Of a stretch of 64,000 bases of DNA, positions 31,428 to 48,107 are shown one piece after another (positions within the stretch are counted from its first letter, which is position 1; each line of letters starts with the position of its first letter). The position numbers and the translations under genes are program-made. Source of the stretch: Frigoribacterium sp. CFBP 13712 (GTDB lineage Bacteria; Actinomycetota; Actinomycetes; Actinomycetales; Microbacteriaceae); the NCBI RefSeq assembly GCF_014842255.1, contig NZ_JACYVH010000002.1, positions 420,519-484,518 on the forward strand. The letters run 5' to 3'. The notes below the pieces were generated by a model. That model was not told the DNA's origin. It saw nothing but the letters and a program-made list of their open reading frames with translations, and made no database searches.

Positions 31428-32517
31428 TCTCCTCGCGCACACGGCGGAGGTCCTCGAGCAGCGACCCGACCAGCACCCAGTTGTCGGGGTCGGGGCGGAG
31501 CACCTGCACCGGCGAGGTCAGCGCCGGGGTGTCGTCGGGCGACGGCGTCGACGAGGCGGGCCGGCCCGTGTCGGCCGGGCGCGCCTCCTCGGTGGTCCGG
31601 GCCAGGAGGCGGACGTCGTGCGCCGCACGACGGAGGTCCTCGGCGATGCTCTGCACCACGGGGTCGTCCGCCAGCCCCGGGTCGTAGTTGTCGTGCACCG
31701 AGCGGACCATGCCGACCACGCGGTTCACCAGCACGGTCAGGCGGTCGAGCAGCGCCCCGTCGGCCTCGAGCACCGAGCGGTTGCGGCTGGCCCGGGGGTT
31801 CAGCTGCAGACTCTCGACACCGGCCGTGACCGCCGAGGAGGCGCGGGCCTGGGCTGCGCGCAGCGCACGGGCGTCGTCGAGTCCCGCCCGCAGCCGCGCC
31901 GCGTCGACCGGCTCGGAGAGCACGGCGGCGGTCTCGTCGAGCACCGACGCGATGTCGCGGGCGAGACGGCCCACCGCGAGATGCGCGGGCGCGAGCAGCA
32001 CCGGCGGCACGATCAGGGCGTTCACCGCGAGGGCGATCGCCGCGCCGATGATCGTCTCGAGCACCCGGTCGAGCGCGTAGTCGGGGGTCTGCGCGCCGAT
32101 GGCGAGCACGAGCATGGCCGAGATCGGCACCTGGTTCGCCGAGCTCGGCGTGAGCCGGAACGCCCACGCGACCAGCAGGCTGACGACGACGATCACGAGC
32201 ACGATCCAGGTCGCGTCGCCGAAGACGAGACCGGCGGCGAAGGCGATCAGCACCCCCGCGATGACGCCCACGCTCCGTTCGAGACCGCGGACGAACGACT
32301 GGTTGACGCTCGGCAGCACCACGAGCAGCGCGGCGATGGCGGCGAAGATCGGCAGCGGCTGCTGCAGCAGGGCCACCGAGGCGAACCAGGCGGCGATGAC
32401 CGCCGCCGAGGTCTTGACGACCTGCAGCAGGGGCGTCCGCTTCGACTGGCGGATGCGCGACGCCACTCCCATGCGCGGCAACCCCCTCGGCAGGGGTCTC
32501 ACGCGACGGGACGGCAC
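31417..32517 (-). CDS. FUSC family membrane protein
   Basis: A 366-residue protein with six membrane helices in the first half (VIAAWFASVALL, LPIFAAIAALLVVLP, VIAGVLIAFAAGLVF, WIVLVIVVVSLLVAWAF, ISAMLVLAIGAQ and IIGAAIALAVNALIVPPVLL) and a helical cytosolic second half. This is the FUSC/aromatic-acid exporter fold. TAGTCT six bases before the GTG at 32517 supports this start. Substrate unknown. Confidence 0.85.
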   Translation of the reverse strand: MPSRRVRPLPRGLPRMGVASRIRQSKRTPLLQVVKTSAAVIAAWFASVALLQQPLPIFAAIAALLVVLPSVNQSFVRGLERSVGVIAGVLIAFAAGLVFGDATWIVLVIVVVSLLVAWAFRLTPSSANQVPISAMLVLAIGAQTPDYALDRVLETIIGAAIALAVNALIVPPVLLAPAHLAVGRLARDIASVLDETAAVLSEPVDAARLRAGLDDARALRAAQARASSAVTAGVESLQLNPRASRNRSVLEADGALLDRLTVLVNRVVGMVRSVHDNYDPGLADDPVVQSIAEDLRRAAHDVRLLARTTEEARPADTGRPASSTPSPDDTPALTSPVQVLRPDPDNWVLVGSLLEDLRRVREEIIG

Positions 32518-33835: not shown

Positions 33836-34141
33836 CCGTCGCGACACACGAGGAGGCGCGGGTGGCGTCGGTCGCCCGCGTGCGCGTAAACTGACCGCAG
33901 CATCACCGCCCGCGTCGTCGACCGACCCGGCCCGCCACGAGGCCCCGCCCTCGTCCGGTCCGCTCGTGCCCGTCGGTCCCGTCGGGGCGTGGTGACCCGT
34001 CTCTCTACGGACACCACAGCTGCATCCACGTCCAGCCCCACCGCGGGCACGGTCGCGCGCATCGGGCGCCGACCTGCTCGCACCGTCGTCGCCACGACGA
34101 CACAGCACCGTCGACGCCCGCGTCGACCACGAGGAGGAGCC
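33836..34141 (+). promoter_or_regulatory. Promoter and long leader of the SNF2 helicase
   Basis: No reliable gene is seen in these 306 bases. One dispersed-motif copy lies at 33851. A TAAACT -10 box is at 33887-33892, so the mRNA would have a leader of about 240 bases rich in GTCG repeats. It ends in the strong Shine-Dalgarno GGAGGAG. An in-frame open extension back to 33989 exists but has arginine-rich noise composition. Confidence 0.4.
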
Positions 34142-36274
34142 TTGGCTCGACCAGGCCAACGTCAATCGGGCGGAACACGCACCGCCACCCGTTCGAACCG
34201 TCGCCGCGAGGTCGACAACGACGGGCTGATCCCCGTCCTGGCCCGCGCCGTGCGCGAGGTCGAGGCCGCGGCCCAGCGGGGCCAGGTGAAGCCCTCGTCG
34301 CGCACCAAGTTCCAGGTCGTCGCGCTGCTCATGCGAGAGGAGCGCGCGCGTGTCAAGGTCGACAAGGCGATCAGCGACTCCGAGCGCGCCGAGCAGATGA
34401 AGCGCCTCGACGGCGTCGCGCAGATCCTCGCCAAGACCGCGGCCCGCGACACGTCGCTGATCGCGCTCCTCGCCGAGGAGGCCGTCGTCTCCGAGGCCGC
34501 GAAGGCGCTGAAGCGCGACCTGCAGATGTCGGCCGGTCTCGAGCTCGCGCCCGAAGAGCTCGTCATCGTCACCGAGAAGGCCCCGGCCCCCGTCGCCTCC
34601 GAGCGTCAGGTCGTTCCGCAGTCGGTCATCTCGCGTCAGCTGGCCAACCCGTTCCTGCCGCCCGACTTCTCGCTGGCCGAGGTGGCCCGCGAGGCGCACC
34701 CCGTGCGACTCGCCAACTGGGAGCTCTTCGGCCCCCTCTTCAAGTCGTTCGAGTACGGCGCCGGCGGCGGGCCCGCCTGCATGCCGCTGCCCGACCCCAC
34801 CACCGTCGACGCCCCGGCCGGCGCCACGCTGATGCAGCACCAGGCGCAGCTCGTCGAGTCGGCCCGACAGGGTCACCGCACCTACCTGCTCGCCGACGAG
34901 CCGGGTCTCGGCAAGACCGCCCAGGCCCTCCTCGCCGCCCAGGCGGCGGACGCCTATCCGCTGCTGGTCGTCGTCCCCAACGTCGTGAAGACGAACTGGG
35001 CCCGTGAGGTCCAGCTGTGGACCCCGACGCGCAGCGCCACCGTCATCCACGGCGACGGCGAGAACCTCGACGCGTTCGCCGACGTCGTCATCGTCAACTA
35101 CGAGGTGCTCGACCGCCACGTCGGCTGGCTCGGCGAGCTCGGCTTCAAGGGCATGATCGTCGACGAGGCCCACTTCATCAAGAACAAGGAGTCGCAGCGG
35201 TCCCGCCACGTGATGCAGCTGTCGCAGCGCATCCGTCAGCGCACGGCCCACCCGCTGCTGATGGCCCTCACCGGCACGCCGCTGATCAACGACATCGAAG
35301 ACTTCAGAGCCATCTGGGAGTTCCTCGGCTGGATCGGCGAGAAGAAGCCGAACGCCGAGCTGCTCGAACGCCTCGAAGACGCCGGTCTCACCCCGGCCGA
35401 CCCCGGCTTCTTCTCGTCGGCCCGCGAGATCGTCATCGACATGGGCATCGTCCGCCGCCGCAAGGTCGACGTCGCCGCCGACATCCCGGCCCGCCGCGTC
35501 GCCGACCTGCCCGTCGAGCTCGACGACGAGGTCGGCCGCTCGATCCGCGAGGCGGAGCGCGAGCTGGCCCGCCGCCTCGTCGAGCGGTACCGGTCCGCCC
35601 TGTCGACCCGCACCTCCGGCGTCCGCGTCGACGGCGTCGACCACGACCTCGTCCGCCAGGTCGCCCGATGGGAGCTCGAAGACAGCCGCTCGTCGTCGTC
35701 GGGCGAGAACGTCTTCAGCATGGTGCGCCGCATCGGGCAGGCGAAGGCCGGGCTCGCCGCCGACTACACCGCGCAGCTGGCACGGAACGTCGGCAAGGTC
35801 GTCTTCTTCGCCAAGCACATCGACGTCATGGACACCGCCGAGGCGACCTTCGCCAAGCGCGGGATCAAGTACGCGTCGATCCGCGGCGACCAGACGCCGG
35901 CGGTGCGCCAGCGCCAGATCGACGCCTTCGTGAACGACCCCGAGGTCGCCGTCGTGGTCTGCTCGCTGACCGCGGCCGGCGTCGGGCTCAACCTGCAGGT
36001 CGCCTCGAACGTCGTGCTCGCCGAGCTGTCGTGGACGGACGCCGAGCAGACGCAGGCCATCGACCGCGTGCACCGCATCGGCCAAGAGGAGCCGGTCACC
36101 GCGTGGCGCGTCATCGCCGCCCAGACGATCGACACCAAGATCGCGGAGCTGATCGACAGCAAGGCGGGGCTCGCCGCCCGGGCACTCGACGGCGACGACA
36201 GCGAGCTCGCGGCGTCGACCGACGTGCAGCTCGACGCCCTGATCGCGCTGCTGACCGAGGCCCTCGGCGGCTGA
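34142..36274 (+). CDS. SNF2-family DEAD/DEAH helicase
   Basis: A 710-residue Swi2/Snf2-type ATPase starting at TTG, chosen because GGAGGAG lies just upstream. A basic tail and an uncharacterised helical domain (about 20-190, with MREERARVKVDKAISDSERA) come first. Motor motifs follow in order: LLADEPGLGKTAQA (Walker A), IVDEAHFIKN, LTGTPLIND, SIRGDQTP and QAIDRVHRIGQ. It probably remodels protein-DNA or RNA polymerase complexes, as RapA-like proteins do; no nuclease, methylase or defence partner is adjacent. Confidence 0.93.
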   Translation: MARPGQRQSGGTRTATRSNRRREVDNDGLIPVLARAVREVEAAAQRGQVKPSSRTKFQVVALLMREERARVKVDKAISDSERAEQMKRLDGVAQILAKTAARDTSLIALLAEEAVVSEAAKALKRDLQMSAGLELAPEELVIVTEKAPAPVASERQVVPQSVISRQLANPFLPPDFSLAEVAREAHPVRLANWELFGPLFKSFEYGAGGGPACMPLPDPTTVDAPAGATLMQHQAQLVESARQGHRTYLLADEPGLGKTAQALLAAQAADAYPLLVVVPNVVKTNWAREVQLWTPTRSATVIHGDGENLDAFADVVIVNYEVLDRHVGWLGELGFKGMIVDEAHFIKNKESQRSRHVMQLSQRIRQRTAHPLLMALTGTPLINDIEDFRAIWEFLGWIGEKKPNAELLERLEDAGLTPADPGFFSSAREIVIDMGIVRRRKVDVAADIPARRVADLPVELDDEVGRSIREAERELARRLVERYRSALSTRTSGVRVDGVDHDLVRQVARWELEDSRSSSSGENVFSMVRRIGQAKAGLAADYTAQLARNVGKVVFFAKHIDVMDTAEATFAKRGIKYASIRGDQTPAVRQRQIDAFVNDPEVAVVVCSLTAAGVGLNLQVASNVVLAELSWTDAEQTQAIDRVHRIGQEEPVTAWRVIAAQTIDTKIAELIDSKAGLAARALDGDDSELAASTDVQLDALIALLTEALGG

Positions 36275-36345
36275 CGCGCGGCGCGACCGGCAGCGAGCCG
36301 GCCGCTGTCCCCTGCGCGCAGTGCGGGGGTCGCCTCCCAGAGAGC

Positions 36346-36371
36346 GCGGGTTCAGTGGATCCTGAACCCGC
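36346..36371 (+). terminator. Hairpin between helicase and VOC gene
   Basis: GCGGGTTCA pairs perfectly with TGAACCCGC around an eight-base loop, GTGGATCC. It either ends the helicase transcript or lies in the VOC leader. Confidence 0.5.
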
Positions 36372-36393
36372 ACTCGACCCCTAGGAGCACACC

Positions 36394-36789
36394 ATGCCCG
36401 AGATCCAGGGCTACGCCCACGTCGCCATCACCGTGTCCGACCTCGACGCGAGCCTGCCGTTCTACGAGAAGCTGCTCGGCGCCGAGCCCGTCGGCCGCAT
36501 CCAGCTCGACGGCCTCGACCGCCACCTGTTCCCGGTGGGCAACGGGCAGATCCTCGGCGTGACCGCCTACACGCACGGGTCTGCCGACGTGTCGAACCCG
36601 ACCACCCCCGGGCTCGACCACATCGGTCTCGCCGTCGCCGACCGCGACGGCGTCGTCGCCTGGCAGGAGCAGGCCACGGCGGCCGGCATCGAGTCCGACC
36701 TGCAGGACGCCGACTTCGGTCACGCCCTCATGGTGAAGGACCCGGACGGCAACCAGATCGAGTTCTTCGCCCCGCGCGCGCAGAGCTGA
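36394..36789 (+). CDS. VOC/glyoxalase family protein
   Basis: A 131-residue protein with two paired beta-alpha-beta-beta-beta modules. Module one starts GYAHVAITVSDLDASLPFYEKLL and module two GLDHIGLAVADRDGVVAW, ending VKDPDGNQIEFFAPR. Metal ligands would be His near residue 9, His near 72 and Glu near 124. It could act on a glutathione/mycothiol adduct, a diol or an antibiotic; the activity is not predictable. A TAGGAG site precedes the ATG. Confidence 0.88.
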   Translation: MPEIQGYAHVAITVSDLDASLPFYEKLLGAEPVGRIQLDGLDRHLFPVGNGQILGVTAYTHGSADVSNPTTPGLDHIGLAVADRDGVVAWQEQATAAGIESDLQDADFGHALMVKDPDGNQIEFFAPRAQS

Positions 36790-36848
36790 TCCGCAGGGCC
36801 CGCACCGCGCCTCCTCGGCTCCGGTCGGGTCCGCCCGCCGAACGACGG

Positions 36849-36880
36849 ACGGCTGCCACGCATCGATGCGAGGCAGCCGT
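36849..36880. terminator. Bidirectional terminator between VOC and mycoredoxin genes
   Basis: ACGGCTGCC pairs with GGCAGCCGT, enclosing the palindrome CGCATCGATGCG. The flanks carry one copy of the dispersed motif in each orientation (36806 and 36900), facing each other across the hairpin. Confidence 0.7.
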
Positions 36881-36910
36881 CGGTTCGTCGGGATGGCGAA
36901 GGAGGCGCGG

Positions 36911-37183
36911 TTACAGTCCGAGCTTCGCCTGCACGTCGGCGAGCGACGGGTTCGTGGCCGTCGAGCCGTCGGGGTAGATGATCGTCGGCACGGTCTGGTT
37001 GCCGTCGTTGACGCTCTGGACGATCTCGGCGGTGCCGGGGACCTCCTCGATGTTCACCTCGGTGTAGGCGATGCCCTGCTTGCCGAGCTGCTGCTTGAGG
37101 CGGGCGCAGTAGCCGCACCACGAGGTGCTGAACATCGTGATCGATCCGGCGGCGGGGACGTAGGCGGTGGCGGTGTCACTCAT
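36911..37183 (-). CDS. Mycoredoxin-like glutaredoxin
   Basis: A 90-residue thioredoxin-fold protein with the active site FSTSWCGYCARLKQQL (CGYC at about 22-25), the cis-Pro in QTVPTIIY, and VNIEEVPG. This is the mycoredoxin-1 pattern, which reduces mycothiol mixed disulfides in actinobacteria. TAGGCT six bases before the ATG marks a leaderless transcript. It is divergent from poxB. Confidence 0.92.
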   Translation of the reverse strand: MSDTATAYVPAAGSITMFSTSWCGYCARLKQQLGKQGIAYTEVNIEEVPGTAEIVQSVNDGNQTVPTIIYPDGSTATNPSLADVQAKLGL

Positions 37184-37266
37184 GACCCGAGCCTAAGCCT
37201 GGTCGGCGGTGAGCGGCGGGGGAGTTGGCTGGGAGCCGCATCAGGCACACCACGAGGAGGAACCCC

Positions 37267-39024
37267 ATGGCCGACACGGTCGCCGATCAGATCATCGCCC
37301 AGCTCGTCTCCGCCGGGGTCCGGCGCATCTACGGCATCGTCGGTGACAGCCTCAACCCGATCGTCGACGCCGTCCGGCGGACCGGGGGGTCGGCGAAGGG
37401 CGGCATCGACTGGGTGCACGTCCGCAACGAGGAGGCCGCCGCGTTCATGGCCTCCGGCGACGCGCAGATGAGCGGCGAGCTGGCCGTCTGCGCGGGGTCG
37501 TGCGGCCCCGGCAACCTGCACCTGATCAACGGCCTCTACGACGCCCATCGCAGTCGGGCGAAGGTCCTGGCGATCGCGAGTCACATCCCGAGCACGATGA
37601 TCGGCTCGGGGTACTTCCAGGAGACCCACCCCGACCGGCTCTTCGTCGAGTGCTCGGGCTACAGCGAGATGATCTCGACGGCGCCGCAGTCGCCCGGCGT
37701 CGTCGCGTCGGCGATCCGCCACACCCTGGCGGGCGAGGGAGTCAGCGTCATCACGCTGCCCGGCGACATCGCCGAGCTGGACGCCGCCGGTCGCGTGCCC
37801 GCCCCCGTGACCGTCGGGGCCGCCGAGCTCGTCCCCGCCGCTGCGGACGTCGAGGCTCTGGCGGATGCCATCAACCGGGCGAAGACGGTGGCGCTGTTCG
37901 TCGGCGAGGGCGGTCGGGGCTCGCACGACGAGATCGTCGAGCTCGCCGACCTGATCGGCGCGCCGATCGGGCACAGTCTGCGCGGCAAGGACGTCATCCA
38001 GTACGACAACCCGTTCGACGTCGGCATGACCGGGCTGCTCGGCTACGGGGCGGCCCACGCGGGCATCCACGACGCCGACCTGCTCGTGCTGCTCGGCACG
38101 GACTTCCCGTACCCGCAGTTCCTGCCGGACGGCGAGAAGGTGACGATCGCGCAGGTCGACGTCAAGGCCGAGGTGATCGGTCGTCGGGCCGACGTGCACG
38201 TGCCCGTCCACGGGGCGATCGCGCCGACCCTCCGTGCGCTGATGCCCCTCGTCCGCCGCAAGAGGAACCGGAGGTTCCTCGAGAAGACCCTCAAGAAGCA
38301 CGACCGGCTGATGTCGGGCGTCGTCGGCGCCTACACGAAGGACGTCGAGGGGATGCGGCCGATCCACCCCGAGTACGCGGCCTCGCTGCTCGACGAGGTC
38401 GCGGCCGACGACGCGATCTTCACCGCGGACACCGGCATGGGCAACGTCTGGGCCGCCCGGTACATCACTCCGACGCCCGAGCGACGCATCTTCGGCTCGT
38501 ACCTGCACGGGTCGATGGCGAACGCGCTGCCGCATGCGCTCGGAGCGCAGATGGCGTTCCCGGAGCGGCAGGTGGTGTCGATCTCGGGCGACGGCGGGCT
38601 GTCGATGCTGATGGGCGAGCTGGTCACGGCGCAGATGTACCGGCTGCCGGTGAAGATCGTCGTGTTCAACAACAGCACGCTGGGGCTCGTCAAGCTCGAG
38701 ATGCTCGTCGACGGGCTGCCCGACTTCGGCGTCGACGTGCCGTACACCGACTACGCGGCCGTCGCGAGGGCGATCGGCATCCACGCGGTGCACGTCGACG
38801 ACCCGCGCGATCTCCGCACGGCGTTGGAGGCGGCGTTCGAGCACGACGGACCCGCCCTCGTCGACATCGCCACCGACCCGAAGGCGCTGTCTCTGCCGCC
38901 GACGATCAGCGGCTCTCAGGTCAAGGGGTTCTCGCTCGCCCTGTCGAAGATCGTCATGAACGGCGGCGCGGGGGAGGCCGTGGCGATGGCCCGGTCGAAC
39001 CTGCGGAACATCCCCCGGCCGTAG
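37267..39024 (+). CDS. poxB: Pyruvate dehydrogenase (quinone) / pyruvate oxidase
   Basis: A 585-residue thiamine-diphosphate flavoenzyme that oxidises pyruvate to acetate and CO2 with electrons passed to quinone. The N-terminal domain has IYGIVGDSLNPIVDAVR and the cofactor glutamate in HVRNEEAAAFMA. The ThDP motif is GDGGLSMLMGE through IVVFNNSTLG. The C-terminal DGPALVDIATDPKALSLPP resembles PoxB. GGAGGAA supports the ATG at 37267. It would give acetate beside the acetyl-phosphate made by phosphoketolase. Confidence 0.93.
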   Translation: MADTVADQIIAQLVSAGVRRIYGIVGDSLNPIVDAVRRTGGSAKGGIDWVHVRNEEAAAFMASGDAQMSGELAVCAGSCGPGNLHLINGLYDAHRSRAKVLAIASHIPSTMIGSGYFQETHPDRLFVECSGYSEMISTAPQSPGVVASAIRHTLAGEGVSVITLPGDIAELDAAGRVPAPVTVGAAELVPAAADVEALADAINRAKTVALFVGEGGRGSHDEIVELADLIGAPIGHSLRGKDVIQYDNPFDVGMTGLLGYGAAHAGIHDADLLVLLGTDFPYPQFLPDGEKVTIAQVDVKAEVIGRRADVHVPVHGAIAPTLRALMPLVRRKRNRRFLEKTLKKHDRLMSGVVGAYTKDVEGMRPIHPEYAASLLDEVAADDAIFTADTGMGNVWAARYITPTPERRIFGSYLHGSMANALPHALGAQMAFPERQVVSISGDGGLSMLMGELVTAQMYRLPVKIVVFNNSTLGLVKLEMLVDGLPDFGVDVPYTDYAAVARAIGIHAVHVDDPRDLRTALEAAFEHDGPALVDIATDPKALSLPPTISGSQVKGFSLALSKIVMNGGAGEAVAMARSNLRNIPRP

Positions 39025-39054
39025 GCGCCGCGCCGCGCCGCGCGCCGCGGAGCG

Positions 39055-39352
39055 TCGAGGTGACTCGAAACGACCCCTCCGGGGCGTCGAGGCGCCGTTT
39101 CGAGTCACCTCGTTTCGGGGGCGGTGGCCCGAGCGCATCGAGGTGGCTCGAACGGGCGCTCTGGCGAGCCCAGGCGCCGCGCCGCCCCGCGCCCCGCGTC
39201 CGCCCCCCATCGATGTGACTCGAAACGGCCCTTTCGGGACTCAAAGGCGCCTCTTCGCGTCACTTCGTTGCAGGGGCCGCGGCCCCCTGTGCATCGAGGT
39301 GACTCGAAGGGCCCCTTCGGGTGAGCCGAGGCGCCGCTTCGCGTCACTTCGT
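39055..39352. repeat. Array of four diverged palindromic repeat units
   Basis: Units begin at 39055, 39138, 39210 and 39294 with variants of TCGAGGTGACTCGAA. Units 1, 3 and 4 end with an opposite arm (GTTTCGAGTCACCTC in unit 1, CTTCGCGTCACTTCG in 3 and 4), so each can fold into a hairpin; unit 1 has a perfect 15-bp stem. Unit 2 has lost its right arm. The 416-base spacer between poxB and the kinase gene contains no credible gene. Confidence 0.85.
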
Positions 39353-39362
39353 CGAGTGCGTC

Positions 39363-39406
39363 AGGAGGCGCGGTGCCGGTCCTCGAAGGCCGGCACCGCG
39401 CCTCCT
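39363..39406. terminator. Hairpin made of two facing AGGAGGCGCG motifs
   Basis: AGGAGGCGCGGTGCCGG pairs perfectly over 17 bp with its complement, with a ten-base loop region TCCTCGAAGG. It sits between converging poxB and the kinase gene and would terminate both. Confidence 0.75.
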
Positions 39407-39440
39407 CGGCTCGGCCCGGCAGGCCCGGCAGACGCGACCG

Positions 39441-40796
39441 TCAGCCGGCGGCGGGCGTGCTCCGCGCGGCCAGGCGGGCGACCGCGGTCAGCGGGATGCT
39501 GATCCAGTCGGGCCGGTTGCGGCTCTCGTAGATCGCCTCGTACACGGCCTTGTCGATCTCGAAGGCGTCGAGCAGTGCGCGGGCCGCGCGGATGTCGACA
39601 CCCGACGATGCGATGTAGCCGTCGACGAAGGCCTTGCGGGCGTCGTGGGCCCACTCGCGGGCGTCGACCGGCGTCGACTCGTGGGCGAGCGACCCGGCGA
39701 CGTAGTCGAACGAGCGCAGCATCCCGGCGATGTCGCGGATCGGCAGGTCGGGGCGCGAGCGCTCGGGCATGGGGCGCAGCGGCTCGCCCTCGAAGTCGAT
39801 CAGCATCCAGCCGCGCTCGGGCGACAGCAGCGCCTGTCCGAGGTGCAGGTCGCCGTGGATGCGCTGCAGGTCCGGCCAGGCGAGATGACCGGCCGCGTCG
39901 TAGACGCGCGAGATGGCGGCTTCGTGCTCGGCGATCTCGGGCACCTCGCGGGCCGCCGTGGCGATGCGCCGGCGCATGCTGACGAGGGCGCCGTCGATCT
40001 CGTCGGGCCCCGCCGCGACGCTGCCGAGCTCGACGGCGAGGGTGGCGTGCATCTCGGCGACGGCCACGCCGAGGTCGTGCGCCTCGGCGGTGAAGTCGGT
40101 TCCGGCCGCCGCGGCCGCGAGGGCCACGCGCCAGGCGTCGTCGAGCCCGGGCAGGAACTCCTGCGAGAACGCGAGGTGCCCGGTGGCGGTCCCGCCGTCG
40201 CGGCCCGGGTCGGTCCAGGTGGCGCGCAGCGAGCCGAACGACGACGGCACGTGCGTCGAGCCGCCGCGGGTCAGCGACGCCTGGGTGGTGACGTCGGGGT
40301 TGTCACCGTGGTGCAGCACGCGGAAGACCTTGGCGATCACGTGCTCGACCGGCCCGCCCTCGACGTCGTAGATGATCGAGGTGTTCGACTGCTCGCCCGA
40401 GAGCACGCGCGAGCGCCGCACCGTGCCGGGGTCGACGATGCGGGTGCCCTCGACGGAGACGTCGGCGCCGTCGATGCGCGCCTCGTCCGTCATCGTGCGG
40501 AGCAGCTCGCGGGCGTAGGCGGGGTCGTGCGGCCCGTCGTAGAGGTAGCGGCCGTCGGCCGAGCCGATGAAGGCCGCGTCGCCGCCGGGAAGCGGGGCGT
40601 CGCGGCTCACCAGCGGCACCTGGTACAGCACGGGGGTGTCGCCGGCCTCGTCGATGATCAGCAGAGTCAGGGCGAGCGCGTCGCCGAGATCGGACTCGTA
40701 CGACCCGATGACCCGCAACGCGGGCGTCCGCCCCTTCGTCGCGTACCAGCGCTGTCGCGCCATCCATCCGGCCAGACTCGGTGCCACGTCGCTCAT
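39441..40796 (-). CDS. Maltokinase-type sugar kinase
   Basis: A 451-residue APH-fold kinase with the maltokinase N-terminal cap (LAGWMARQRWYATKGR, residues about 8-23). The kinase lobe shows VIAKVFRVLH, the catalytic loop RIHGDLHLGQALL and the metal motif MLIDFEGEP. In the GlgE pathway such enzymes phosphorylate maltose, but treS and glgE are absent here, and orphan relatives phosphorylate glucosamine. TAGGGT six bases before the ATG indicates a leaderless transcript. Confidence 0.85.
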   Translation of the reverse strand: MSDVAPSLAGWMARQRWYATKGRTPALRVIGSYESDLGDALALTLLIIDEAGDTPVLYQVPLVSRDAPLPGGDAAFIGSADGRYLYDGPHDPAYARELLRTMTDEARIDGADVSVEGTRIVDPGTVRRSRVLSGEQSNTSIIYDVEGGPVEHVIAKVFRVLHHGDNPDVTTQASLTRGGSTHVPSSFGSLRATWTDPGRDGGTATGHLAFSQEFLPGLDDAWRVALAAAAAGTDFTAEAHDLGVAVAEMHATLAVELGSVAAGPDEIDGALVSMRRRIATAAREVPEIAEHEAAISRVYDAAGHLAWPDLQRIHGDLHLGQALLSPERGWMLIDFEGEPLRPMPERSRPDLPIRDIAGMLRSFDYVAGSLAHESTPVDAREWAHDARKAFVDGYIASSGVDIRAARALLDAFEIDKAVYEAIYESRNRPDWISIPLTAVARLAARSTPAAG

Positions 40797-40822
40797 GCGA
40801 CGACCCTACGCCCGCCCGGCCG

Positions 40823-40879
40823 AGGAGGCGCGGCGCGAGCCCCGAGGAGGCGCGCGCGGCTCGACGCCGTCGCCGCGCC
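40823..40879. repeat. Cluster of three dispersed-motif copies
   Basis: Two direct copies of AGGAGGCGCG (40823, 40845) and one near-copy in the other orientation (CCGCGCCTCC near 40876) fill the spacer between the divergent kinase and CYTH genes. Confidence 0.6.
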
Positions 40880-40935
40880 TCCCTCACGGGGCGGGCCGCT
40901 CGCCCCGCACCCGGCGACCGGCTACAACTGGAGGC

Positions 40936-41574
40936 ATGAGCCGCACCGAGCAGACCGAGATCGAGCGCAAGTACGACGTCGACCAGACGGCCGTCGTCCC
41001 CGACCTGGGCGGGGTCGCCGGGGGAGGGCTCGTCGTCGGGCGCACCGAGCCGCGACCCGCCGTCGAGCTGGTGGCGACCTACTGGGACACCGACGACCAC
41101 GCGCTCGTCGCCGCCCGGACGACCCTGAGGAGGCGAGAGGGCGGAGGCGACGAGGGCTGGCACCTCAAGCTGCCGCCGCAGGCCGGCACGACGGGCCGTC
41201 GTGAGGTGCACTGGCCGCTCGGATCCGCCGACGAGCCGGTGCCCGCTGACCTGCTGGCACTCGTCGCCGGCGTGCTCGACGGGCGCTCGGTGCGCCCCGT
41301 GCTCCGGCTGGCGACGAACCGCTCGGTGCTGATGCTGCTGGCAGACGACGACTCGGCCCTCGCCGAGGTCGCCGACGATGTGGTCACCGCGACGCGACTC
41401 GCGTCGGGCGCCGAGCGTCGCTGGCGCGAGTGGGAGGTCGAGCTCGCGCCGGGTGTCGACGGCGAGCCGGGCGAGGGTCTGCTCGACGCGGTCGAGCAGC
41501 GTGTCCTCGCCGCCGGGGCCGTCGTCTCGTCGTCGCGGTCGAAGCTGGCGAGGGGCCTCGGGGCCGAGGGCTGA
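40936..41574 (+). CDS. CYTH domain protein
   Basis: A 212-residue protein with the CYTH hallmark EIERKYDV (ExExK) near residue 7 and basic/acidic tunnel strands TTLRRRE, GWHLKLP, RREVHWPL, WREWEVELAPG and SRSKLARGL. CYTH enzymes hydrolyse inorganic triphosphate or make cyclic AMP. There is no CHAD domain. TACAAC seven bases before the ATG suggests a leaderless mRNA, although GGAGG also lies close by. Confidence 0.9.
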   Translation: MSRTEQTEIERKYDVDQTAVVPDLGGVAGGGLVVGRTEPRPAVELVATYWDTDDHALVAARTTLRRREGGGDEGWHLKLPPQAGTTGRREVHWPLGSADEPVPADLLALVAGVLDGRSVRPVLRLATNRSVLMLLADDDSALAEVADDVVTATRLASGAERRWREWEVELAPGVDGEPGEGLLDAVEQRVLAAGAVVSSSRSKLARGLGAEG

Positions 41575-41595
41575 CCTGCCGACGGCCGCCCGCCC

Positions 41596-41633
41596 GGCCG
41601 ACCCGCGCCTCCTCGGAGTCCGCGGGTCGGGCC
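41596..41633. terminator. Bidirectional hairpin between CYTH and peptidase genes
   Basis: GGCCGACCCGCG pairs with CGCGGGTC-GGCC (one bulged G); the loop contains a dispersed-motif copy at 41604. Confidence 0.6.
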
Positions 41634-41653
41634 GGCCCGCTCGGGTCGGCCGC

Positions 41654-43762
41654 CTAGGCGCGACCGAGCACGTCGAGGATCCACGCGATCTCGACGGCGC
41701 GCTCGCGCCACGACTCGTAGCGCCCGCTCACGCCACCGTGCCCGGCCGACATCTCGGTCTTCAGCAGCACGGGCGCGCCGACGTCGCGCAGCCGGGCGAC
41801 CCACTTGGCGGGTTCGACGTAGAGCACGCGGGTGTCGTTGAGCGAGGTCACGGCGAGGATGCGCGGGTAGGCGACGCCCTCGCGCACGTTCTCGTAGGGG
41901 CTGTAGCCGCGCATGTACTCGTAGACCTCGGCGTCGTGCAGCGGGTCGCCCCATTCGTCCCACTCGATCACCGTGAGGGGCAGATCGGGGTCGAGGATGC
42001 TCGTGAGCGCGTCGACGAAGGGCACGGCGGCGACGATCCCCGCGAAGCGGTCGGGCGCGAGGTTGGCGACCGCGCCCATCAGCAGGCCGCCCGCGCTGCC
42101 GCCCTCAGCGACGAGCAGCTCGGGCGTGGTGCGGCCCTCGGCGATGAGGTGGTCGGCGACGTCCACGAAGTCGGTGAACGAGTTCTTCTTCGTCAGCGTC
42201 TTGCCCCCTTCGTACCAGGCGCGACCCAGCTCGCCGCCGCCGCGCACGTGCGCCACGGCGAAGACGACGCCACGGTCGAGCAGCGACAGACGGGCGACGC
42301 TGAAGCCGGGGTCGATGCTGTGCTCGTACGAGCCGTAGCCGTAGAGGTGGACGGGCGAGGGGCCCGAGGTCGGCACGGCGTCGCGGCGCCAGACCAGCGA
42401 CACGGGCACGCGCGTGCCGTCGGCCGCGGTGGCCCATTCGCGCGACTGCTCGTAGTCGGCGGGGTCGTAGCCGCCGAGCACGTTCTGCCGCTTGAGCAGG
42501 CGACGCTCGCCGGTGCGCACGTCGAGGTCGTACACGGTCGACGGGGTGACGAACGAGGTGTAGCCGAATCGGACGGTGGGCTGGGCGAACTCGGGGTTGC
42601 CGCCGACGCCCGCGGCGAAGAGCGGCTCGTCGAACGCGACCTCGGTCACGTCGCCGTAGCCGTCGGCGTCGAGCGGGACGACCGCGAAGCGGGGCAGCGC
42701 GTCGCGACGGTACTCGACGACCAGGTGGCCGGCGAACGCGTCGACCGATTCGAGCCGGACGGAGGCGCGGTGCGGCATGATCACGCGGCGGTCGGTGGTC
42801 GAGGTGGGGTCGTCGGCCGGCACGTCGACCAGCTCGAAGTTCTCGGCGTCGTCGTTGTGGACGACGAGGAGGCGGTCGCTGCCCGCGACGATCGCGTGCT
42901 CGACCTCGTACTCGACGCCCTCGCGGCGCGGCCACACGACGCGGAACTCGCCCGTCGGGTCGCTCGAGTCGAGCAGCCAGGTCTCGCTGGTGATCTTGGA
43001 GCCGATGTCGATCACGAGGTACTGGCGGCTGCGGGTCAGGCCCACGCCGATCCAGTAGCGGTCGTCGGGCTCGGTGAAGACGGTGACGTCGTCGGCCGCC
43101 CGGCCGACCTCGTGACGCCAGATGGTGTCGGGGCGCCACGACTCGTCGACCGTGGGGTAGAAGACGTAGCGACCGGTGGCGTCGAAGAGGGCGCCCGGGG
43201 CGGTGTCGGGGATCTCGTCGTCCAGGTCGGAGCCGGACTCGAGGTCGCGGATCCGCAGGGTGTAGCGCTCGTCGCCCTCGGTGTCGACCGCGTAGGCCAG
43301 CAGTCGGCCGTCGGGGGAGACGTCGAAGCTGCCGAGCGAGAAGAAGTCGTGTCCGTCGGCCTCGACGTTGCCGTCGAGGAGGACCTGCTCGCCCTCGGCG
43401 GGGCGGTCGGCGCCGAAGACCGGGGGAGTCCAGTCGTCGGGGCCCGCGATGGGCGCCCGGCAGTGGATGCCGTACTGCGAGCCCTCGGCCGTCCGCGAGT
43501 AGTACCACCACGAGCCCTCACGGACGGGGACGCCGAGGTCCGTCTCTTGGACGCGGCTCCTGATCTCGTCGAACACGGTCTCGCGGAGACCCGCGAGATG
43601 CGCGGTCTCGGCGGTCGTGTGGGCGTTCTCGGCCTCGAGATGCGCGAGGACCTCCGGGTCCTCCTTCGCCCTCAGCCATTCGTAGTCGTCGACGAAGTCG
43701 TGGCCGTGGTGGCTGCGAGTGACGGGTCTCTTCGGAGCGCGGGGCGCGGGGACGGAAGCCAT
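41654..43762 (-). CDS. ptrB: Oligopeptidase B-like S9 peptidase
   Basis: A 702-residue prolyl-oligopeptidase-family enzyme that cuts short peptides after basic residues. A short lead (RSHHGHDFVDDYEWLRAKED) precedes a seven-bladed propeller and an alpha/beta hydrolase domain. The nucleophile is in VAEGGSAGGLLMG, the aspartate in TSLNDTRVLYVEP, and the histidine in SAGHGGVSGR near the C-terminus. It is cytosolic. TAGGGT six bases before the ATG predicts a leaderless mRNA. Confidence 0.93.
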   Translation of the reverse strand: MASVPAPRAPKRPVTRSHHGHDFVDDYEWLRAKEDPEVLAHLEAENAHTTAETAHLAGLRETVFDEIRSRVQETDLGVPVREGSWWYYSRTAEGSQYGIHCRAPIAGPDDWTPPVFGADRPAEGEQVLLDGNVEADGHDFFSLGSFDVSPDGRLLAYAVDTEGDERYTLRIRDLESGSDLDDEIPDTAPGALFDATGRYVFYPTVDESWRPDTIWRHEVGRAADDVTVFTEPDDRYWIGVGLTRSRQYLVIDIGSKITSETWLLDSSDPTGEFRVVWPRREGVEYEVEHAIVAGSDRLLVVHNDDAENFELVDVPADDPTSTTDRRVIMPHRASVRLESVDAFAGHLVVEYRRDALPRFAVVPLDADGYGDVTEVAFDEPLFAAGVGGNPEFAQPTVRFGYTSFVTPSTVYDLDVRTGERRLLKRQNVLGGYDPADYEQSREWATAADGTRVPVSLVWRRDAVPTSGPSPVHLYGYGSYEHSIDPGFSVARLSLLDRGVVFAVAHVRGGGELGRAWYEGGKTLTKKNSFTDFVDVADHLIAEGRTTPELLVAEGGSAGGLLMGAVANLAPDRFAGIVAAVPFVDALTSILDPDLPLTVIEWDEWGDPLHDAEVYEYMRGYSPYENVREGVAYPRILAVTSLNDTRVLYVEPAKWVARLRDVGAPVLLKTEMSAGHGGVSGRYESWRERAVEIAWILDVLGRA

Positions 43763-43794
43763 CCGCCAACCCTACTGAAGGCCGCGGTGGGCGC

Positions 43795-44145
43795 TCAGTG
43801 CGAAGCGGCGTCGATCCGGCCCATCAGCGACCACACGGCGCGCGACAGCTCGGGGTGCCAGAGCGCGACCGTCCGGAGGAACCTCAGCTCGTCGGTCGTG
43901 CCCAGCCCGCCCGCGACGGGCACCCCGTCGACGCCTCGCGCCGCGGCGCGGATCGAGATGACGACCTGCTCGTCGACGGTGGGCAGACCGGGGATGACGT
44001 CCCACGGGTCCTCGCCGTTGCGGCACCGGAGCTCGATCAGGGCCGCGAGCTCGTCGTGCGCCTCGGCCCGCAGCACCTCGAGGCTGCGACCGGCCCCACG
44101 GAACTCGGGCACGCCCCCTCGGGGCGCGTCGGGTGTCTCGGGCAT
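43795..44145 (-). CDS. Hypothetical protein
   Basis: A 116-residue soluble protein I do not recognise. Two helical stretches, LEVLRAEAHDELAALIELRCRNG and DEQVVISIRAAARG, precede DELRFLRTVALWHPELSRAVWSLMGRID. It has one cysteine and no membrane segment. TAGGCT seven bases before the ATG supports expression and the start. It lies 32 bases upstream of oligopeptidase B on the same strand. Confidence 0.65.
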   Translation of the reverse strand: MPETPDAPRGGVPEFRGAGRSLEVLRAEAHDELAALIELRCRNGEDPWDVIPGLPTVDEQVVISIRAAARGVDGVPVAGGLGTTDELRFLRTVALWHPELSRAVWSLMGRIDAASH

Positions 44146-44201
44146 GCGGACGAGCCTACGCGCGAGCGCCTCGACGGTCGCGGGGCCGCTAGCCTCGGCG
44201 C

Positions 44202-44711
44202 ATGGTCTACCGAGTGTGCGTCGCCTACCTCCTCCGCAGGGTCGAGGGGCGGACGGAGGTGCTGCTCGGTCGCAAGAAGCGCGGTCTCGGCACGGGGCGG
44301 TACGTCGGTCTCGGCGGCAAGCTCGAGGCGGGGGAGTCGGCGCTCGACGCGATCGTCCGCGAGATCGCGGAGGAGGCGGGCGTGGTCGTGCAGCCGGGCG
44401 ACCTCGACCGCCGCGGGGATCTGCTCTATCTGTTCCCGCACCGCGAGTCGTGGAGCCAGCGCTCGACGGTGTTCGTCACGACGCGCTGGTCGGGCGAGCC
44501 CGTCGAGAGCGACGAGCTCGCCCCCGCCTGGTTCGCGCTCGACGATCTGCCGCTCGACGAGATGTGGAGCGACGCGCGCGCGTGGCTCCCGGCCGTGCTC
44601 GCCGGCGGCGCCGTCTCGCACGAGTTCACCTTCGGCGAGGACCTCGCGAGCGTCGCCTCCGATCGGCCTCTGCCCGACGGCATGCCGCCCGTCGGCGCTC
44701 CGTCCGCCTGA
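44202..44711 (+). CDS. NUDIX hydrolase, MTH1-like
   Basis: A 169-residue NUDIX enzyme. LLGRKKRGLGTGRYVGLGGKL resembles MTH1 (8-oxo-dGTP diphosphatase), and the box GGKLEAGESALDAIVREIAEEAGV fits G-x5-E-x7-REUxEExGU. It may clean oxidised purine nucleotides. TAGCCT six bases before the ATG predicts a leaderless transcript. It is divergent from the hypothetical gene at 43795 and converges with the membrane pair. Confidence 0.9.
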   Translation: MVYRVCVAYLLRRVEGRTEVLLGRKKRGLGTGRYVGLGGKLEAGESALDAIVREIAEEAGVVVQPGDLDRRGDLLYLFPHRESWSQRSTVFVTTRWSGEPVESDELAPAWFALDDLPLDEMWSDARAWLPAVLAGGAVSHEFTFGEDLASVASDRPLPDGMPPVGAPSA

Positions 44712-44721
44712 TCGGCCGGGG

Positions 44722-44949
44722 TCAGCGCTCGCCGCGGTGCGACCGGGAGCCGCTCGAGCGGACGAAGAAGTCGACCACGCCGACCAGCACGGCCAGCACG
44801 ACCGCGCCCCACGCGTAGCCCACGAAGAGACCGGCGACGTCACGGCCGCCCGGTGCGAGCGTGACGCTCAGGACGTAGAGGGCGGCGGCGGCGACCAGCA
44901 GGACGACGACGACCGCGACGAGCAGGCGGTGCAGGGCGGATCGGTTCAC
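44722..44949 (-). CDS. Small two-helix membrane protein
   Basis: A 75-residue protein with two hydrophobic segments (LLVAVVVVLLVAAAALYVLSV and GLFVGYAWGAVVLAVLVGVVDFF) and a basic C-terminus. It starts at GTG. A TAGGCT -10 box eight bases upstream begins with the stop codon of the larger membrane gene before it. The two genes may work together; function unknown. Confidence 0.7.
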   Translation of the reverse strand: MNRSALHRLLVAVVVVLLVAAAALYVLSVTLAPGGRDVAGLFVGYAWGAVVLAVLVGVVDFFVRSSGSRSHRGER

Positions 44950-44960
44950 GACCGGTCAGC

Positions 44961-46292
44961 CTACCGGCGGGGTCTCGTCGGGATCGGCCGCGTGTCGAGG
45001 GTGTCGTCTTCGAGGCCGCCGGGCGAACCGAGGAACATGTCGCCCGATGTGCCGTCGTCCAGGTCGCCGCGCTCGTCGATGTCGACGGTGTTGATCGTGC
45101 CGGTGTCGGTCGAGACGAGCCCGTGGCGTCGCAGCACCTCGTCGCGCTCGGCGACCAGGAAGTCGCGGTTCGCGTTCTGGGCGTCCGCGAACATGGTCGT
45201 GCGACCCGTCACGATGCGGCGGATCCGACGTCGCTCCCACCACTTCTTGCCGGTGACCATCAGCACGACCCCCGCGACCGCGTAGGCCAGCATCATCGTG
45301 AGTCCGCGACCGTAGCCGGGGCCGACGTCGTAGAGGGCCCGCTTCAGCATCTCGGTGATGCCGCTGCCCACCACGACGTTGTTCAGCCAGGCGAACGGCT
45401 GGGGCATGAACCACGACGGGTAGGCCCCGCCCGAGGCCGGCATCGACAGGAAGACGAAGACGATCATCGCGGGCAGGGCGACGAACCGACCGACGAAGTA
45501 GCTGATGCCGTTGACAGCGAGGCCGATCGCGATGATCCATCCCCAGCCCAGCAGGAAGAGCTCGAGGAAGTGACCCTGCACGGCGCCGACCACCGGCCCG
45601 GCCAGGACGTTCGTGATCAGCGAGATGACCGCCCCGCCGACGACGATCACGGTCGTGCGGGTGCGGTGACGCAGCGGCGCGCCCATCAGCCCGATGAACA
45701 TGGCGACCATGTACCCGCCGATGCACCAGGCGAGCATCAGGTAGAGCGAGACCGTGCCGTACTCGTCGTAGGCGGGCAGCGGGGCGAGGTCGGTCACCGC
45801 GGGCGCCGCTGCCCCCTCCGCCTCGATCACCGGCGTCAGCATGGCCGGGATCAGGGCCGCGACCTGGTACTGGTGCGCGCTCGCCGTGTAGAGGGCGTCG
45901 TCGCCCGGGTCGTAGGCGACCGCCACGCGACCGCTCGTGACGGCCGACCGCGCCTCCGCCACGTCGTCGTACGAGCGCAGCTCGATCGCGCCGGGCAGCC
46001 GCTCGTCGAGGGTCGTCTGCAGCTCGGACGACGAGCCGACGATCGCCACCGGCACGTCGTGCGGATGCGGCGCATGGAACGCCGCGATGTAGCAGAGGCA
46101 GAAGCCGACGATGAAGAACAGCGGCAGCCAGAGCTGCAGCCCGATCAGCTGCAGCGACGGGTGGAGGGTCGAGTACCACCGACGGAAGCGGCCGGGCCCG
46201 GTCCGACCGGCTCGATCCGCGCCGCCCGCGCCGTCGTCCGCCGCGCCTCCCGCCGATCCGCCCGTCGTCGATCCCGCCGTCGTGTCCGTCAC
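44961..46292 (-). CDS. ABC-2-like / DUF3533-like membrane protein
   Basis: A 443-residue protein. A Gly/Ala-rich cytosolic tail (about 1-35) precedes one helix (LWLPLFFIVGFCLCYIAAF), an extracytosolic domain of about 120 residues (VPVAIVGSSSELQTTLDERL), then five to six helices and a C-terminal polar tail. This layout matches YhgE/Pip and DUF3533 ABC-2-type permeases. No ATPase is adjacent. It starts at GTG. Export or phage-receptor-like roles are known for relatives; none can be assigned here. Confidence 0.7.
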   Translation of the reverse strand: MTDTTAGSTTGGSAGGAADDGAGGADRAGRTGPGRFRRWYSTLHPSLQLIGLQLWLPLFFIVGFCLCYIAAFHAPHPHDVPVAIVGSSSELQTTLDERLPGAIELRSYDDVAEARSAVTSGRVAVAYDPGDDALYTASAHQYQVAALIPAMLTPVIEAEGAAAPAVTDLAPLPAYDEYGTVSLYLMLAWCIGGYMVAMFIGLMGAPLRHRTRTTVIVVGGAVISLITNVLAGPVVGAVQGHFLELFLLGWGWIIAIGLAVNGISYFVGRFVALPAMIVFVFLSMPASGGAYPSWFMPQPFAWLNNVVVGSGITEMLKRALYDVGPGYGRGLTMMLAYAVAGVVLMVTGKKWWERRRIRRIVTGRTTMFADAQNANRDFLVAERDEVLRRHGLVSTDTGTINTVDIDERGDLDDGTSGDMFLGSPGGLEDDTLDTRPIPTRPRR

Positions 46293-46358
46293 TGCCGCCT
46301 GCTCTCGCCTCGTCCGCCGTCCTCCAGGGTACGCCGCGGTCTCCGCCCGTCGACCCCC

Positions 46359-48107
46359 TCAGGACCTCGTGCTGGCGAGCGCCGAGGTGTCCATGGCGAG
46401 CTCCTCCGCGTCGAGCCCGAGCAGCACCCGCCGCATGACCTCCTCGTCGAGGTTGCCCGCGTCGCGTTCGCGGAGCACGACCTCGCGACGCTTGGCCAGC
46501 AGCTCCCGACGGATGGTGCCGATCGCGTGCGGTGCCTCGCGCCTCCTGCGGGCCTGGTCGTCCGTCGGGCCGTTCGCCTCGCGTTCGTCGGCGTCGTCGA
46601 CCGCGGTGCGCTGCAGGGCCTCGTTCTGACGCAGCAGACGCGTGGTGGTCGAGCGGACGGCGCGGTCGGTGAGCTCCGCGCCCCAGCGCTCCTCCCACAC
46701 GGGTCGGCGGCGTTCGACGTACGCCATCGTCTCCTCCGTGCTGGTCGCGAAGATCTCGAGCTCGGCGGCGAGGTCGCGGTCGCGCTGGGTCTCGTCGCGG
46801 ACCCCGAGGGCGCGGATCACGACGGGCAGGGTCAGCCCCTGGATCAGCAGGGTCCCCACGGTCACGATGAACGCGATCAGGAACATCGTGTCGCGGGCCG
46901 GCACCGCGATGCTCGACTGGGTGACGGCGGGGATCGACACGGCCGCGGCCAGCGTCACGACGCCGCGCATGCCCGTCCACGAGATGACCGTGAGCTGCCG
47001 CCAGTCCATGCGAGGCTGCGGCCGGTAGCGGACCGCGCGGAGAGCGGGCGCAGCCCGGGCCCTCCGCAGCGCGGGCACCCTGCGGAGCCTCCGCAGCAGA
47101 GGCGACAGGAACACGTAGCGGGCGGCGCGCGCGGCGTAGTGGCTGCCGAAGACGAACACGGGGCGGACGAGCACGACGACCGCGAGCACGGCGAGCGCCA
47201 CCCCGACGCTCTGCCCGAGACCCCTTTCGCTGTCGGCCACGTCGAGCACCACGGCCCGCAGCTGCAGCCCGATGAGGGCGAAGACGAAGCCCTCGAGGAC
47301 GACGTCCGCCGCCGACCAGAACGGGCGCTCCTGCAGTCGGGTCGCGTAGCCCGTCCGTGGCGAGTTGAAGCCGACGTAGAGCCCGGCGGCGACGACGCCG
47401 AGCACGCCCGACCCGCCGAGCTCCTCCGCCGTGATGTAGGCGACGAACGGCAGCAGCAGTCCGATGACGTTCTCGATGACCGGGTCGTCGATGCGCATCC
47501 GCACCCGGTGCGCGACGAAGCCGAGCACGAGACCGACGGCCACCCCGACCCCGATCGCCAGCGCGAAGATGCCGAGGTCGTCCCACACCGTGAGGCTGGC
47601 CCCGCCGACGATGGCGAGGAACACCTTCACGAGCGTCAGCGACGCGGCGTCGTTGATGAGGCTCTCGCCCGACAGCACGGTCATCACCTTGCGGGGCAGA
47701 CCGAGCCTCCGCCCGATGGCGGCGGCCGACACCGCGTCAGGAGGCGCGACCACGGCCCCGACGAGCAGTGCGGCCGGCAGGGTCATGTCGGGGATCATCA
47801 GGTAGGCCACGCCGCCCACGGCGAAGGCGGTGACGACGACGGCGCCGACGCCCAGCCGGGCGATCTGGGCCCGGCTCTCGCGGAAGTTGAGCAGCGAGAC
47901 GTCTAGGGCGGCGGAGTAGAGCAGCGGCGGCAGCACCACGGTCAGGATCAGCTCCGAGTCGATCTCGACGTCGGGCACACCGGGGATCAACGAGACGAGC
48001 AGTGCGACGCCGACGGTCAGCAACGGGGCCGGCAGGCCGCGCCAGCGGGCGAAGGCGGTGACGATCAGAGAGCCCGTGAGGATGATCAGCAGCTCGGCGA
48101 GTTCCAT
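46359..48107 (-). CDS. CPA1-family Na+/H+ antiporter (NhaP-like)
   Basis: A 582-residue antiporter with about 12 helices at residues 1-420 and a long cytosolic C-terminus. The transport core has VGAVVAPPDAVSAAAIGRRLG and VLSGESLINDAASLTLVKVF (the ND pair of CPA1). The end includes coiled segments such as LLRQNEALQRTAVDD. It exports Na+ or K+ for proton uptake. The start at ATG 48107 gives the usual first helix but has no clear ribosome site. Confidence 0.92.
   Translation of the reverse strand: MELAELLIILTGSLIVTAFARWRGLPAPLLTVGVALLVSLIPGVPDVEIDSELILTVVLPPLLYSAALDVSLLNFRESRAQIARLGVGAVVVTAFAVGGVAYLMIPDMTLPAALLVGAVVAPPDAVSAAAIGRRLGLPRKVMTVLSGESLINDAASLTLVKVFLAIVGGASLTVWDDLGIFALAIGVGVAVGLVLGFVAHRVRMRIDDPVIENVIGLLLPFVAYITAEELGGSGVLGVVAAGLYVGFNSPRTGYATRLQERPFWSAADVVLEGFVFALIGLQLRAVVLDVADSERGLGQSVGVALAVLAVVVLVRPVFVFGSHYAARAARYVFLSPLLRRLRRVPALRRARAAPALRAVRYRPQPRMDWRQLTVISWTGMRGVVTLAAAVSIPAVTQSSIAVPARDTMFLIAFIVTVGTLLIQGLTLPVVIRALGVRDETQRDRDLAAELEIFATSTEETMAYVERRRPVWEERWGAELTDRAVRSTTTRLLRQNEALQRTAVDDADEREANGPTDDQARRRREAPHAIGTIRRELLAKRREVVLRERDAGNLDEEVMRRVLLGLDAEELAMDTSALASTRS

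Follow-up and report, generated by a model that had tools for sequence, protein, structure and literature searches.

According to a 2025 paper, the Neisseriaceae and the Pasteurellaceae are the only families known to possess uptake motifs, and the motifs of both families occur as dialects (PMC12616744). In genes, nearly all tested genomes with uptake sequences show a preference for the antisense direction, and the Pasteurellaceae sequences show an excess toward gene ends (both PMC2346458). When uptake sequences of Haemophilus and Neisseria are paired, the extended motif supplies A/T flanks and a T-tail, and the Neisseria stems have fewer thymines (PMC1852404). The positions of neisserial DUS are described as conserved between strains. 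Among actinobacteria, Micrococcus luteus is described as naturally competent and as possessing Flp pili (PMC6370729). Among the open-access papers listed, judged by title, we found none that ties uptake sequences to Microbacterium, Frigoribacterium or their family, and none on natural transformation of Frigoribacterium.

The window, that is, the whole stretch of DNA analysed (64,000 nt), derives from contig C2 of the 3.16-Mb genome of Frigoribacterium sp. CFBP 13712 (Microbacteriaceae). Initial annotation had proposed that facing copies of a motif build terminator hairpins in this DNA as uptake sequences do. At 39363-39406, AGGAGGCGCGGTGCCGG stands opposite its perfect complement over 17 bp (22-nt arms, 91% complementary), and the near-identical stem at 53053-53091 has 19-nt arms that are 100% complementary. 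As had been stated, the extension GTGCCGG is present in both stems. Both sit between converging genes. The core of hairpin 1 lies 339 nt from the stop codon on its left and 35 nt from that on its right; for hairpin 2, these distances are 35 nt and 48 nt. Folding of the + strand gave -48.4 and -49.0 kcal/mol, and 0 of 200 shuffles folded as well (z -6.3 to -7.2 in four folds, both stems and both strands). Two further sites, 15886-15947 and 36806-36909, had been described as looser facing pairs. However, their copies stand back to back, with the reverse-complement copy first and the forward copy last, 44 bp and 86 bp apart, respectively. A third facing pair at 40824-40882 (imperfect, gap 39) had been overlooked. 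The pairs and the genes beside the two hairpins are as follows:

15883-15948, unstranded: back-to-back pair; second copy with 1 mismatch, first copy 2 nt behind a stop codon
36803-36912, unstranded: back-to-back pair with another inverted repeat between its copies (36838-36891); a stop codon lies directly beside the second copy
37267-39024, + strand: thiamine-pyrophosphate enzyme, left of hairpin 1
39363-39406, unstranded: hairpin 1, facing pair, 17-bp perfect stem (inverted-repeat search, folding)
39441-40763, - strand: maltokinase N-cap protein, right of hairpin 1
40824-40882, unstranded: imperfect facing pair (the third), with a gap of 39, between divergent genes
51501-53018, + strand: fumarase/aspartase-type lyase, left of hairpin 2
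53053-53091, unstranded: hairpin 2, facing pair, 19-nt perfect arms (inverted-repeat search, folding)
53139-54281, - strand: BrkB-family membrane protein, right of hairpin 2

The window also holds other inverted repeats. Just left of hairpin 1, 39056-39360 is taken up by an array of inverted units, roughly three or four and imperfect (TCGAGGTGACTCGAAACG ... CGTTTCGAGTCACCTCG), of a different repeat family. An intergenic 29-nt inverted repeat at 17413-17478 (93% complementary, 8-nt loop) is without the motif, and at 60620-60724, between converging genes, the arm TCGTCAGCTGACGAGGCGCGC is accompanied by three successive complementary partners.

The genome contains 1,562 copies of the motif's core, GGAGGCGCGG, against 76 of the reversed word; in the window, the counts are 40 and 1. 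For the 12-mer GGAGGCGCGGTG, the corresponding genomic counts were 233 and 1; single copies were divided between the strands (110 forward, 123 reverse). When up to two mismatches were allowed, 63 matches to the 12-mer were found in the window, where 39.4 (sd 6.2) were expected. Counts per 20 kb of the genome are over-dispersed (variance/mean 2.0), and the departure of the spacing between word copies from random was not significant. The 11-mer AGGAGGCGCGG is abundant in all 16 Frigoribacterium genomes examined (383-1,239 copies, controls 4-27). Its nearly invariant heart is GGAGGCGC: among one-base variants in the genes of the source genome, the first base and the last two are variable, the first C shows a modest excess of variants (10 versus 2.6), and each inner variant has 0-5 genic copies as compared with 93 for the intact word. 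The core copies in the window are the following (genes were called with a home-made codon-model caller, in the window as in the samples described below):

450-459, - strand: genic
721-730, + strand: genic
3183-3192, - strand: genic
6120-6129, + strand: genic
7372-7381, - strand: genic
10284-10293, + strand: genic
10467-10476, - strand: intergenic, 1 nt after a stop codon
12424-12433, + strand: genic
14690-14699, + strand: very end of a called gene
15885-15894, - strand: intergenic, 2 nt after a stop codon
17497-17506, + strand: intergenic
18281-18290, - strand: genic (LigD gene)
18555-18564, + strand: genic (LigD gene)
20391-20400, + strand: intergenic, 2 nt behind the stop codon of a - strand gene
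21310-21319, - strand: intergenic
21889-21898, + strand: genic
24954-24963, + strand: genic
28789-28798, - strand: genic
29419-29428, + strand: intergenic
31401-31410, + strand: near the end of a called gene
31837-31846, + strand: genic
33852-33861, + strand: intergenic
36805-36814, - strand: intergenic
36901-36910, + strand: intergenic, adjoins a stop codon
39364-39373, + strand: in hairpin 1
39396-39405, - strand: in hairpin 1
40824-40833, + strand: in the third facing pair
40873-40882, - strand: in the third facing pair
41603-41612, - strand: intergenic
42761-42770, + strand: genic
45948-45957, - strand: genic
46241-46250, - strand: genic
48352-48361, - strand: genic
51393-51402, - strand: intergenic
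53054-53063, + strand: in hairpin 2
53081-53090, - strand: in hairpin 2
54458-54467, - strand: genic
56329-56338, - strand: genic
63022-63031, + strand: intergenic
63264-63273, - strand: genic

The word is spread through genes as well as between them. In a 464-kb sample of the source genome, 88.5% of which is coding, 244 core copies were divided into 134 genic and 110 intergenic ones; in stretches unselected for pairs, 73 of 130 copies were genic and 57 intergenic. The intergenic density was 1.85 per kb in the unselected stretches and 2.06 in the first sample, where densities are biased upward because stretches had been picked partly where exact pairs were known. Genic copies were compared with shuffles of synonymous codons: 134 versus about 12 in the source genome, 72 versus 8.5 in G035, a congener whose contig C1 matches NZ_RKIE01000001.1 of Frigoribacterium sp. 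PhB160 at 100% over 8,000 aligned bases, and 79 versus 12.3 in a further Frigoribacterium genome (G110). The two genic 10-mers with the highest scores were GGAGGCGCGG and AGGAGGCGCG, which is GGAGGCGCGG shifted by one base, in each of the three Frigoribacterium samples. Copies in genes were more often antisense (169) than sense (116, p 0.002), and 140 of 276 fell into the terminal fifths of genes, an excess (p 0.0004). Twelve sampled copies, in antisense orientation, start 0-2 nt after a stop codon (for example, 10467, 15885, 20391 and 36901 in the window), and the flank of the word may help to form the stop codon at such sites.

The density of the word is kept while the positions of its genic sites turn over. 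Only 3 of 25 genic sites of the source genome were identical in orthologues, about as overall identity predicts, with gapped sites scored as misses: 1 of 13 in G035 (about 1 expected) and 2 of 12 in G110 (about 1 expected), where 4 more were one mismatch off. This turnover bears on the explanation that survives best among the rivals, namely that the word is bound by some other abundant DNA-binding protein, or read by a modification system, for reasons that have nothing to do with uptake. Whatever reads it specifically could keep such a word in place. Nevertheless, turnover at kept density argues against site-specific regulation, and the inverted use of the word in hairpins parallels uptake sequences; we regard this first rival as unlikely.

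Chi- and KOPS-type motifs have an orientation that follows replication. If the word were a Chi-like hotspot for recombination, or a site that organises the chromosome, its sharp specificity, the small tolerance of inner mismatches, the hundreds to thousands of copies and the restriction of words to lineages would fit. In G110, however, 64 copies lie on the + strand and 54 on the - strand of 20 stretches, a local balance, and none of these stretches was strongly biased (the most uneven were small, with 3:0, 2:0 and 3:7). Consistent strand bias was likewise absent from stretches of eight other genera of the family, counted mostly for the word CGGATGCCG treated below (most uneven stretch 5:14). 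A strongly oriented motif was rejected on this local balance. The intergenic excess and the use in hairpins also speak against a Chi-like site, which ranks second among the rivals and is improbable.

The use in hairpins was then counted in the genome. The source genome has 13 exact facing pairs of the 12-mer (control, 0), where hand calculation gives an expectation of about 0.1 for uniform placement, and of no more than about 1.2 were every copy confined to intergenic DNA. All 13 are intergenic (7 between co-directional, 4 between convergent and 2 between divergent genes), and 11 lie behind at least one stop codon. Stretches of three Frigoribacterium genomes that had not been picked for pairs held 10 facing pairs with gaps of up to 30 nt versus 1.55 expected (8 in the source genome, 2 in G110 and none in the small G035 sample), as compared with 0 outward pairs versus 1.65 expected at the same gaps; tandem pairs numbered 6 versus 3.2. 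Facing pairs thus exceed what single-copy density predicts. These values replace an earlier count for the source genome (22 versus 5.6, gaps up to 100), which carried the picking bias of the first sample, where 6 of 20 stretches of the source genome, 10 of 15 of G035 and 12 of 15 of Curtobacterium G105 had been chosen at known exact pairs. An apparent enrichment between convergent genes in that biased sample (13 of 143 convergent versus 1 of 166 divergent regions, p 0.0004) was rejected too: it was not visible in unselected stretches (1 of 92 versus 0 of 108), and a convergent bias across the complete set of 13 pairs was not significant.

The stems covary. At the fifth inner position, 15 of 19 pairs of the source genome are complementary versus 8.7 with shuffled partners (best of 500 shuffles, 14); at the fourth, the values are 13 versus 6.6 (best shuffle, 16) in the source genome and 13 of 14 versus 4.6 (best shuffle, 10) in G035. 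Complementarity at inner positions one to three, which are part of the common GTGC extension, was within the best shuffle. Between co-directional genes, the hairpin centre lies a median of 38-41 nt behind the upstream stop codon. From the pair excess, the covariation and the position behind stop codons, we conclude that the hairpin is under selection and is often located where a terminator would be. TTTT was found within 15 nt in none of the 108 flanks of 54 sampled hairpins (21 from Curtobacterium), and a scan of 36000-54500 with a terminator consensus gave no terminator-like site at the two stems. In G110, where the word is present, none of 37 strong intergenic stems was built of it. The hairpin may end transcription without a T-tract or with the help of Rho, or it may protect the 3' end. 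The proposal that facing pairs form terminator hairpins as uptake sequences do is partly supported, by the pair excess, the stem covariation and the uptake-like character of single copies; its claim that the arrangement is the same as in Haemophilus and Neisseria is not supported, since A/T flanks are supplied there, whereas 0 of the 54 hairpins sampled here have a T-tract.

Distribution of the word points to a second genus. A scan of the genome collection for facing pairs gave at least 119 stretches, and all matches listed were from Curtobacterium or Frigoribacterium. Among 150 genomes of the family, the core was far above control in three of Frigoribacterium (936-1,562 copies) and two of Curtobacterium (673 and 688). 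It was weaker in genus g55 (399 versus 142 for the control in one genome, 133 versus 98 in its congener), and the highest count in the remaining genomes was 208 versus 202 (G116). The Curtobacterium genomes G031 (contig C1 probably NZ_MJGN01000001.1) and G105 (best matches among Curtobacterium contigs) have 97 and 83 exact facing pairs, often GGAGGCGCGGTGCCAGCTGGCACCGCGCCTCC. Their copies are mostly intergenic: genic copies in G105 numbered 11 versus 5.8 in codon shuffles, core density at least 150 nt from gene ends was 0.028 per kb as compared with 0.18-0.28 in Frigoribacterium, and neither GGAGGCGCGG nor AGGAGGCGCG was among the six top words (with complements) listed for Curtobacterium genes. 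No position of the Curtobacterium pairs covaries beyond the best shuffle because the stems are nearly fixed. The contrast between the two genera shows that the hairpin use of the word is separable from its dispersed use.

Curtobacterium is also the model for the third rival, a pure family of terminators or 3'-end hairpins in which single copies are decayed halves. The numerous pairs of that genus with their frequently fixed stem and mostly intergenic copies, and the short distance of hairpin centres behind upstream stop codons, are in its favour. In Frigoribacterium, however, over half of the sampled copies are genic (134 of 244; 73 of 130 in unselected stretches), also deep in genes, and only 38 of 244 copies are in close facing pairs, even in the pair-enriched sample. 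Moreover, decay predicts many neighbours with one inner mismatch, whereas inner variants reach at most 5 genic copies versus 93 intact, and the largest excess, at the first C, is 10 versus 2.6. We rejected a pure terminator family on the genic copies, including those deep inside genes, and hold this explanation to be quite improbable. Lastly, a compositional or codon-usage artefact is conceivable, since G+C-rich codons can spell the word and the G+C content of the sampled genome is 71.5%. It was rejected as highly improbable given the synonymous-codon shuffles (about 12 versus 134), the relatives without the word and the reversed control (76 versus 1,562).

Words of similar behaviour occur elsewhere in the family. 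We took 40-kb samples from 20 other genera of the Microbacteriaceae, of which 19 were usable (G003 had no usable gene calls). In 10 of the 19, CGGATGCCG or an overlapping GGATGCC form was among the four top genic 9-mers. In genes, GGATGCCG was found 71 times versus 10.9 in codon shuffles in G106 and 35 versus 6.0 in G129. Whole-genome counts of CGGATGCCG reach 3,084 (G142), 2,929 (G102) and 2,536 (G063), as compared with 121-156 in three Frigoribacterium genomes. Outside the family, in 111 genomes from 19 families of the order, its count never exceeds 406, nor its ratio to the reversed word about 4.5; because the reversed word contains TAG, such ratios flatter CGGATGCCG, and codon shuffles are the fairer control. 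For GGATGCCG, no clear excess of facing pairs was seen across eight other genera (13 facing, 7 outward and 16 tandem among 305 sites). Other genera have other words: GGATGCGC was found 22 times versus 4.5 in codon shuffles in G028 (genus g29), and GGAGGCGC, a shorter form of the Frigoribacterium word, 205 times in genes versus 74 in G055 (g55, L221-L235). Congeners of genus g85 differ in CGGATGCCG (175 copies, control 64, in G228; 2,245 in G106), and the word may have been lost or replaced within that genus. In several sampled genera, no dispersed word was detected; in genus g5, the nearest to Frigoribacterium by one fumarase comparison, neither word was much above control. The words of different genera look like dialects, as in the Neisseriaceae and Pasteurellaceae. 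By comparison of the words, without a genus tree, only GGA-GC is common to CGGATGCCG, GGATGCGC, GGAGGCGC and AGGAGGCGCGG; the resemblance of GGATGC and GGAGGC is short and may be a coincidence.

We also looked for mobile DNA and for uptake machinery. In G151, one 45-kb stretch with a phage portal gene lacks the word, where about 12 copies would be expected from the mean spacing of 3.9 kb; the contig with this gap was fully covered by the match listing. Phage Min1, counted alone, has one CGGATGCCG and one GGAGGCGCGG. In L029, a motif-free stretch of 14.4 kb contains regulators, ECF sigma factors and a LysE exporter, and no clear mobile element was seen among the 10 proteins scanned (8 with a family). 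A glutaredoxin query aimed at phages of the Microbacteriaceae gave 15 records, none of them from the family by organism name. ComEC is present in 148 of 150 genomes of the family, and a ComEA-like protein in all 12 genomes searched (8 over the cut-off). This presence is family-wide and does not single out the motif-rich genera.

Single copies of the word had been taken to be like uptake sequences, and they are so in being dispersed, without local strand bias, both genic and intergenic, and specific to lineages. We give a probability of about one half to a reading in two layers, in which a family-wide word resembling uptake sequences has a Frigoribacterium form that is reused in 3'-end hairpins. 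The sum of the features probably fits an uptake-sequence-like word better than its rivals, because positions turn over at kept density, copies lie on both strands with an antisense and gene-end bias, and hairpins, apparent dialects and the G151 gap are found. Pointing the other way are the over-dispersed counts, the sites without conserved positions, the genera in which no dispersed word or, as in g5, neither word stands out, the scarcity of CGGATGCCG in G228, the occurrence of ComEC and ComEA throughout the family, the lack of a T-tract, the strong G110 stems built of other sequence and the small G035 sample free of close facing pairs. On the two-layer reading, AGGAGGCGCGG would be the Frigoribacterium form of a dispersed recognition word of the Microbacteriaceae, and a putative receptor of the competence machinery would prefer DNA that bears it. 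Fragments of self type would recombine back, so that the word would accumulate as a genome-wide density and not as fixed sites. Where two copies came to stand in facing orientation close to the end of a gene, separated by about 9-22 bp, the stem would be kept and lengthened by selection, and the RNA hairpin may end or protect the transcript without a U-tract. It is possible rather than probable that the Microbacteriaceae are the third family, and the first Gram-positive one, with DNA uptake sequences, in which CGGATGCCG is the commoner dialect, AGGAGGCGCGG is that of Frigoribacterium, and AGGAGGCGCGG was taken from or given to the hairpin common with Curtobacterium. If so, the forces behind the spread of these words, be it sex, repair or selfish drive, could be tested in a third lineage; the word would also be a pointer to a novel receptor for DNA in the envelope of Gram-positive bacteria and offer a practical handle for transforming such actinobacteria.

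Among known systems, the Curtobacterium intergenic palindrome GGAGGCGCGGTGCCAGCTGGCACCGCGCCTCC has identical arms and a similar position, but its loop is frequently fixed and its genic copies are near shuffle level (11 versus 6). Chi- and KOPS-type motifs are likewise many exact short words, but the word described here is without consistent strand bias. With intrinsic (Rho-independent) terminators, the hairpins share a stable G+C-rich stem shortly behind stop codons; unlike them, they lack TTTT within 15 nt in 108 of 108 flanks. As compared with the DUS of Neisseria and the USS of the Pasteurellaceae, the word has a putative role in uptake, its host is an actinobacterium, it is G+C-rich and several times denser between genes, and its hairpins are without a T-tract. 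Moreover, neisserial DUS keep their positions between strains and the Frigoribacterium sites do not, although the Frigoribacterium species are far more diverged. In common with DUS and USS, however, it is a short word with hundreds to thousands of genic and intergenic copies, antisense exceeds sense in genes, related genera have what look like dialects, inverted pairs form hairpins behind genes, and, as with the USS of the Pasteurellaceae, copies are biased toward gene ends.
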